From the NCBI GenBank assembly GCA_903831455.1, contig CAIKXV010000011.1, positions 1 through 33,769 of the forward strand: a stretch of 33,769 nucleotides of DNA, written 5' to 3'. The notes below the pieces were generated by a model. It had not been told where the DNA came from and did not search any database. It saw nothing but the letters and a program-made list of their open reading frames with translations. Each line of letters opens with the position of its first letter. Positions within the stretch are counted from its first letter, which is position 1. The stretch is from an uncultured Pseudomonadota bacterium. GTDB lineage: Bacteria; Pseudomonadota; Gammaproteobacteria; Burkholderiales; CAIKXV01. A program made the position numbers and the translations under genes. Positions 1,987 to 5,223 of the stretch are shown here, in pieces.

Positions 1987-3816
<1,830 letters not shown>

Positions 3817-3922: not shown

Positions 3923-3944
3923 CCCGCCTGCGGGAAAAACCCGC
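3923..3944 (-). promoter_or_regulatory. Mutually exclusive hairpins in the typA leader
   Basis: Three arms occur in a row: CCCGC (3923-3927), GCGGG (3930-3934) and CCCGC (3940-3944). The middle arm can pair with either neighbour. On the minus (typA sense) strand one hairpin carries a five-T loop. The site lies about 107-130 bases upstream of the typA start, so it would be in the leader only if transcription starts further upstream. An attenuator role is a guess. Confidence 0.25.
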
Positions 3945-4162
3945 GAGACTACCACGCGACCATGGCGTTTCCGCCCGACCCGGATAAACTTGCGGATTTG
4001 CCCGACGTTCGGGCCCCGGCCGAGGTGGCCAGCCCCGGCCGCGGGGCTCGGTGGCCCGGGGATGCCGGACGCCGGAGGCGGGCCACCGCCCGCGGGTCGC
4101 CGCCGACGCCGGGCGGATCGGACACGCTCCGGCGACCGGGTCCGGTGGGTCGCGGCGGCCAT

Positions 4163-4204
4163 ACACCCCACACCCCACACCCCACCCCCCACACCCCACA
4201 CCCC
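4163..4204 (+). repeat. Six tandem C-rich heptamers (ACACCCC)
   Basis: Six head-to-tail copies of ACACCCC run from 4163 to 4204; the fourth copy is ACCCCCC. The complementary strand therefore has six runs of at least four G separated by TGT or T, a pattern able to form a G-quadruplex. The array ends 14 bases before the ATG of the Ldh-family gene and takes the place where a ribosome-binding site would be expected. Seven-base units do not preserve reading frame if copy number changes. Confidence 0.9.
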
Positions 4205-4218
4205 GCGGCTCGCCGACC

Positions 4219-5223
4219 ATGACCACCCTCAGCCTTGAACAGATCACCGATTTGGCTCGCCGTGCGCTCGTCGGGGCCGGCGCCGCCGAGGATCAGGCGC
4301 AAGCCACTGCGCGCGCCCTGGCGGCCGCCGAGGCCGATGGCCTGGCGACCCACGGTCTGTCGCGGGTACCGCTCTACGCCGATCACCTGCGCTGCGGACG
4401 CGCCGATGGGCACGCGCGGCCGGTGCTCGCGCGCGAGCGTGGCGGGGCCTGCCTCGTCGATGCCGGCGGCGGGCTCGCTTTCCTGGCCTGCGAGATGGCG
4501 ATCGGCGAGGCCGCCCGTCGCGCGCGCAGCCATGGCATCGCGATCGCCGCGGTGACCCGCAGCCATCACAACGGCGCGGCGGTCTACCACCTCGAACCGC
4601 TCGCCGCACAGGGCCTGGTCGGGATGGCCTTCACCAACTCGCCGGGCGCGATCAACGCCTGGGGTGGCCGCCGTCCGGTGTTCGGCACGAACCCGATCGC
4701 CGCGGCCTTCCCGCGGCGCAACGCGCCGCCGGTGCTGATCGACCTGTCGCTGACCGAGGTCACCCGCGGCAAGATCATGCTCGCTGCAAAGGAAGGACGA
4801 CCCATTCCCGAGGGCTGGGCGGTCGACCGCGAAGGGCGCCCCACCACCGATGCGAAGGCCGCGCTCACCGGCAGCCTGTTCGCCATCGGCGGGGCGAAGG
4901 GCGCGATGCTGGCGATGATGGTCGAACTGCTGTGCGTGTCGCTGACCGGCGCGGCCTTCGCGTTCGAGAACGACTCGTACTTCGAGCCGGGCAACCACCC
5001 GAGCATCGGCCATGCCTATCTCGCGATCGACCCGGAGGCGCTGGCCGGGCGCGACATGGCCCTGGACCGCACCGAGGACCTGGTGGCGGCGATGCTGGCC
5101 GATCCGGGGGTGAGGCTGCCGGGCGATCGCCGGCACCGCGAGCGCGAGCGTGCGGCCCGCGAGGGCGTGGCGGTCCCCGACGATCTGGTGCGCCAGCTCG
5201 AGGCGATCGCGGCCGGGCGGTGA
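4219..5223 (+). CDS. Ldh_2-family (malate/lactate/sulfolactate-type) NAD(P)-dependent dehydrogenase
   Basis: The 334-residue protein belongs to the Ldh_2 family of NAD(P)-dependent 2-hydroxyacid dehydrogenases, which includes malate, L-sulfolactate, ureidoglycolate and pyrroline-carboxylate-type enzymes with a non-Rossmann fold. Visible hallmarks are [14 protein letters not shown] (H45), [15 protein letters not shown] (H116/H117), [20 protein letters not shown], the segment [20 protein letters not shown], and PTTDAKAAL followed by [13 protein letters not shown]. The usual DMATS-type motif reads DLSLT here. The ATG at 4219 is chosen because family homology begins there; the frame stays open upstream through the heptamer repeat to about 4051, and no Shine-Dalgarno sequence precedes 4219. 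Substrate cannot be read from the sequence. The neighbouring molybdenum hydroxylase suggests a catabolic role. Confidence 0.85.

Follow-up and report, generated by a model that had tools for sequence, protein, structure and literature searches.

Close to the start codon of a gene of the malate/L-lactate dehydrogenase family (ldh) lies a tandem array of six C-rich heptamers, a real, non-random and lineage-specific microsatellite of a kind that has already been described. The array is probably a small product of slippage in a lengthened ldh leader, of the type reported by Rehm et al. in 2015 (PMC4692102), with a nil or modest effect on ldh and without switching of its reading frame. Slipped-strand replication would have made the ACACCCC array in place, within a 5′ leader that is itself lineage-specific; in the ldh transcript the array would form a G-free part of the 5′ UTR, and its DNA template strand could fold into a G-quadruplex (G4). 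Positions given below are those of the window, the whole 33,769-nt stretch of DNA that was analysed.

Structure of the heptamer array

The array occupies positions 4163–4204 of the plus strand and is composed of three ACACCCC units, one imperfect unit (ACCCCCC) and two further ACACCCC units (TRF period 7, 6.0 copies, 94% match and score of 77). A spacer of 14 nt separates its end from the ldh ATG at 4219. The original prediction of a six-unit array 14 bases before the ATG of an Ldh-family gene is thus confirmed, save that the imperfection of the fourth unit had gone unmentioned. Simulations of 4 Mb at Markov order 1 or order 3 produced zero period-7 arrays of 35 nt or longer, and a chance origin of the array is excluded by them. 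Tandem-repeat statistics for the genome itself were drawn from samples of 0.5–1.4 Mb together with whole-genome pattern searches, and three consecutive exact ACACCCC units were found at one place in the whole genome (4.1 Mb, 306 contigs).

The G-rich strand of the array is the minus strand, which carries six runs of 4–6 G with a period of 7 and a four-tetrad G4 motif that is unique within the window. This strand, the template for ldh, could form a four-layer G4, and the G4 potential earlier ascribed to its six G-runs is supported at the sequence level. The mean G4Hunter score over the array is −2.6, and among 494,129 sampled positions, 2 had a 25-nt window that reached the array minimum.

An assembly artefact is unlikely, as the array is short and internal, has conserved genes on both sides and differs from the poly-C terminus of contig C98 in the same genome. 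The description of the array as telomere-like reflects a superficial likeness: it is internal on a 33.8-kb contig, between genes that are neighbours genus-wide, and a telomere repeat was rejected on the same grounds, the array sitting in the genus-conserved typA/ldh junction and not at a replicon end.

The typA/ldh junction

Downstream of the array is ldh itself (Ldh_2, PF02615; residing at 4219–5223 on the plus strand, Pfam 335 bits), the start of which is conserved in congeners. Its divergent neighbour, at 1987–3816 on the minus strand, is the GTPase gene typA/bipA (Pfam GTP_EFTU and BipA_C). In a congener set comprising one genome per species, related ldh genes were found in ten genomes, and the junction at which typA adjoins ldh is visible in nine of these; the contig of the tenth, G004, starts within ldh and has no assembled junction. 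The array is present in none of the nine congeners with an assembled typA/ldh junction and is, by this comparison, lineage-specific.

Between the two genes, the genus alignment contains two conserved blocks. The typA-proximal block (AAAAACCCGCGAGACTACCAC, positions 3935–3955, minus strand) probably holds the typA −10 box. The second, TAAACT at positions 3985–3990 of the plus strand, is the putative −10 box of ldh; its genus form TA(C/A)ACT is kept in all nine congeners with the junction. The full sigma-70 consensus has no match at this putative ldh promoter, for which the −10 box is assigned by genus conservation only. The distance from the box to the ldh ATG is roughly 30–60 nt in most congeners, about 130 nt in congener G008 and 228 nt in the window. 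Accounting for the additional length in the window is a GC-rich segment of the ldh leader (positions 3998–4162, plus strand, from the putative promoter to the array) that congeners lack or have in much shorter form; it is non-coding by codon-position GC and ends in the array. For this segment, the genome contains no meaningful paralogue or transposed source; an Rfam search returned no RNA match, and the ldh leader is not unusually structured (fold z = −0.02). G008 has two ldh copies beside typA, one of them almost identical to that of congener G006, which suggests contamination of the G008 assembly.

Because the array and the extra GC-rich leader are located between the −10-like box and ldh, the array probably belongs to the ldh 5′ UTR, with the transcript start placed from the conserved box; if this placement is right, ldh is transcribed from the G-rich strand. 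The array does lie between typA and ldh, in the upstream region that the two genes had been said to share, but no effect on typA is to be expected, as ~210 bp separate the array from the conserved block with the probable typA −10 box.

Related arrays in the genome and genus

Pattern scans of the genome revealed about five CCCC-heptamer arrays with differing units. A TCACCCC array is found near tRNA-Ser on contig C15 and a GCACCCC array near tRNA-Lys on contig C251, the identities of both tRNAs having been read from sequence only. An array of 12.4 copies of CCCCGTA (L230:9997–10083, G000:C270) ends 65 nt before a gene for a luciferase-like monooxygenase; the same unit also occurs in a relative from the order (G270, contig C5). 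On contig C98, ACACCCC/CCACCCC units run into poly-C at the contig end. This end (L232:5681–5762) consists of about 80 C and probably arose from a C-rich heptamer tract as an artefact of sequencing or assembly. Contig C251 also has, at its start, a 28-bp tandem repeat of 7.8 copies (L231:1–219, G000:C251). The 4.1-Mb genome further contains a large expansion of the TctC family (tripartite tricarboxylate receptor), with at least 150 genes, which would be in keeping with a Burkholderiales-like bacterium.

In 1.39 Mb of sequence from this genome, a sample that was not chosen for C-rich heptamer arrays, seven is the commonest array period among those not divisible by three, and four clean heptamer arrays occur, only two of them C-rich. 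As two of these four are not G4-capable, slippage is indicated rather than selection for G4, and heptamer slippage in this genome is not limited to G4 units.

Within the genus, consecutive pairs of exact ACACCCC units occur at just two places, the array before ldh and the lemA leader of G006, in which the last CCCC is 21 nt from the ATG (L365, G006:C806). The lemA leader of G009, a close relative of G006 (95% LemA identity), has an array of the 8-mer CCGCCCCT where G006 has the 7-mer ACACCCC (L366, G009:C165), and most other congeners have no array in this leader. These leaders suggest rapid local turnover of C-rich repeats near the lemA start, and repeated local birth and loss of C-rich arrays would be the simplest reading. 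Slippage in place as the likely origin of the array before ldh is well supported: the turnover in the lemA leaders of G006 and G009, the sister C-rich heptamers of the genome, the absence of the array from nine congeners and a match in orientation and in distance from the ORF to the repeats of Rehm et al. all argue for it. Taken as a product of slippage only, the array would be a further case of heptamer microsatellites born beside genes in GC-rich bacteria.

Relation to known heptamer repeats

Rehm et al. described G4-forming heptamers, GGGAATC and GGGGA(C/T)T, in Xanthomonas and Nostoc, demonstrated G4 formation by these units with circular dichroism, judged phase variation unlikely and left the function open (PMC4692102). 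By their rule, the repeats precede an ORF by no more than 50 bp and have G on the non-coding strand; they are under-represented between divergent genes (PMC4692102). The array before ldh is similar to these repeats in being a tandem, intergenic series of heptamers with a run of 3–4 G, in a genome with several such arrays, and in being absent or altered in relatives; its units are arranged head to tail with at least four G-runs of at least 3 G. It is also situated near an ORF start, beside a metabolic gene, 14 nt upstream of the ORF and so within the 50-bp limit, with the G-runs on the non-coding (minus) strand. It differs in its unit, GGGGTGT, in a G4 potential derived from sequence scores instead of circular dichroism, and in its location between divergent genes, which counts against filing it with the Rehm repeats. 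Those repeats are highly abundant, whereas the present genome has about five CCCC-heptamer arrays of differing units and a single ACACCCC array. As many genome copies of a shared unit are not found, the array is best filed by type, with intergenic G4-capable heptamers, and not as a member of the Xanthomonas/Nostoc family.

Two other systems have heptamers at comparable positions. In Haemophilus influenzae, 7-bp repeats (ATCTTTC)n within the 5′ UTR of the hmw1A P2 transcript cause proven phase variation, with 13–24 heptamers studied at the locus (PMC8262952). Those heptamers separate a promoter from the start codon, and the array before ldh would be placed likewise if the conserved −10-like box upstream of it is the ldh promoter, but hmw1A is an adhesin gene with 13–24 units that are not G4-capable, and the array before ldh has six interrupted units. 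In marine Beggiatoaceae, TAACTGA repeats precede start codons at 169 places, and ribosome entry independent of a Shine–Dalgarno (SD) site has been proposed for them (PMC4679880); they too are heptameric direct repeats just upstream of a start that has no SD, but they are not G-rich, and their many places stand against one ACACCCC array here. Earlier work, as cited in the same paper, ranked heptamers first among long-unit repeats in most genomes and placed four Burkholderia genomes among the ten richest (PMC4679880).

Within the order, arrays of the ACCCCNN type are present in 25 of 300 genomes, mostly as TCACCCC, with fewer genomes matched by a reversed-pattern control; ACACCCC itself is present in 3 of 399 genomes. 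An exact-match scan of species genomes for ACACCCC gave, among the matches listed, mostly Cyanobacteria, with other phyla scattered. The cyanobacterial arrays (Microcystis, Oscillatoria, Nostoc and others) have an identical unit, but many arrays per genome where the present genome has one, and independent origin of the cyanobacterial and present arrays would be the simplest reading. At 36 of 50 ACACCCC arrays elsewhere (p = 0.003), or 35 of 50 with GTG starts allowed, the nearer gene lies to the 5′ side of the G-rich strand, as judged from crude gene calls and with several loci from the same genome, which are non-independent. This bias is in the same direction as the asymmetry reported by Rehm et al. 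Taken separately, the order-level loci gave 14 of 20 (12 of 20 when GTG was accepted as a start), numbers too small to show asymmetry.

Translation start and possible effects on ldh

No SD site is visible before ldh, the last 22 nt before the ATG pairing with the anti-SD tail at only −1.7 kcal/mol. The array had been held to replace the ribosome-binding site; the SD is indeed missing, but this is not unusual, given that an SD-like 4-mer precedes 103 of 224 firm starts sampled in this genome (against 45 in a control stretch), leaving about half of the sampled genes without one, and that several congener ldh leaders are likewise weak in SD or have no clear SD. More distinctive is the G-free stretch of the ldh leader, which is 46 nt long, against a maximum of 18 nt among 224 other leaders. 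This stretch speaks against a passive reading, and so does the position of ACACCCC at its two sites in the genus: in either case a start codon is no more than about 25 nt away, possibly a sign of some function. The array as the extreme of a common G-poor leader type was rejected, since general G-depletion before starts is absent from the sample of this genome, in which positions −15 to −5 are even G-enriched.

Tuning of ldh transcription or translation by unit number or by a template-strand G4, in analogy to hmw1A, is unlikely, even with the array probably situated between promoter and start codon, its G4Hunter score extreme, and the 7-bp repeats in the hmw1A P2 5′ UTR as a precedent (PMC8262952). 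The gene is metabolic, the units are few and interrupted (six, compared with 13–24 at hmw1A) and the array is species-specific; the predicted accessibility of the start region is flat, at 0.29–0.31 across 4 to 12 units; and the ldh mRNA carries the C-rich strand, which precludes an RNA G4. That unit number or the template G4 sets ldh expression through a slippage-tunable 5′ UTR element, making the array a heptamer rheostat of a metabolic gene, we consider quite unlikely. Were such an element real, the lemA arrays of G006 and G009 would identify C-rich arrays near start codons as control elements that have been recruited repeatedly, and if expression followed unit number, G4-capable heptamers, the function of which Rehm et al. 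left open in 2015, could tune metabolic genes.

The G-free stretch could alternatively serve as an unstructured, SD-independent landing site for the ribosome, for example via S1, in a tightly folded leader. The 46-nt tract and the missing SD are in keeping with this, as are the ldh leader of G008, the final tract of which is likewise C/A-rich and poor in G but contains no heptamers, and the comparable proposal for TAACTGA repeats before starts (PMC4679880). Such a role is nevertheless improbable, owing to the G-enrichment at −15 to −5 and the lack of general G-depletion before starts, and to a start region that is predicted to be largely base-paired (about 0.3 unpaired) whether or not the array is present.

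The ldh frame is open upstream through the repeat, as originally predicted, as far as a GTG at 4051, the only in-frame start upstream; this openness is uninformative, because repetition of ACACCCC creates no stop codon in any reading frame: all three forward frames are open across the array, and three forward ORFs cross it. Codon-position GC is flat in the leader (0.82/0.81/0.86, compared with 0.77/0.55/0.88 in ldh), and a coding upstream extension of ldh was rejected on this evidence. The proposed phase-variable upstream initiation, in which slippage by 7 bp would switch an N-terminally extended Ldh on and off, has in its favour the open frame from GTG 4051 and a step that is not a multiple of three; it is nevertheless unsupported and highly improbable, since openness is shared by all three frames, the leader has no ldh codon signature, and the extension is absent from congeners, the starts of which align with ATG 4219. 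The conserved ldh start is, on this alignment, ATG 4219, and slippage would alter the length of the leader but, at any unit number, not the ldh frame read from this codon.
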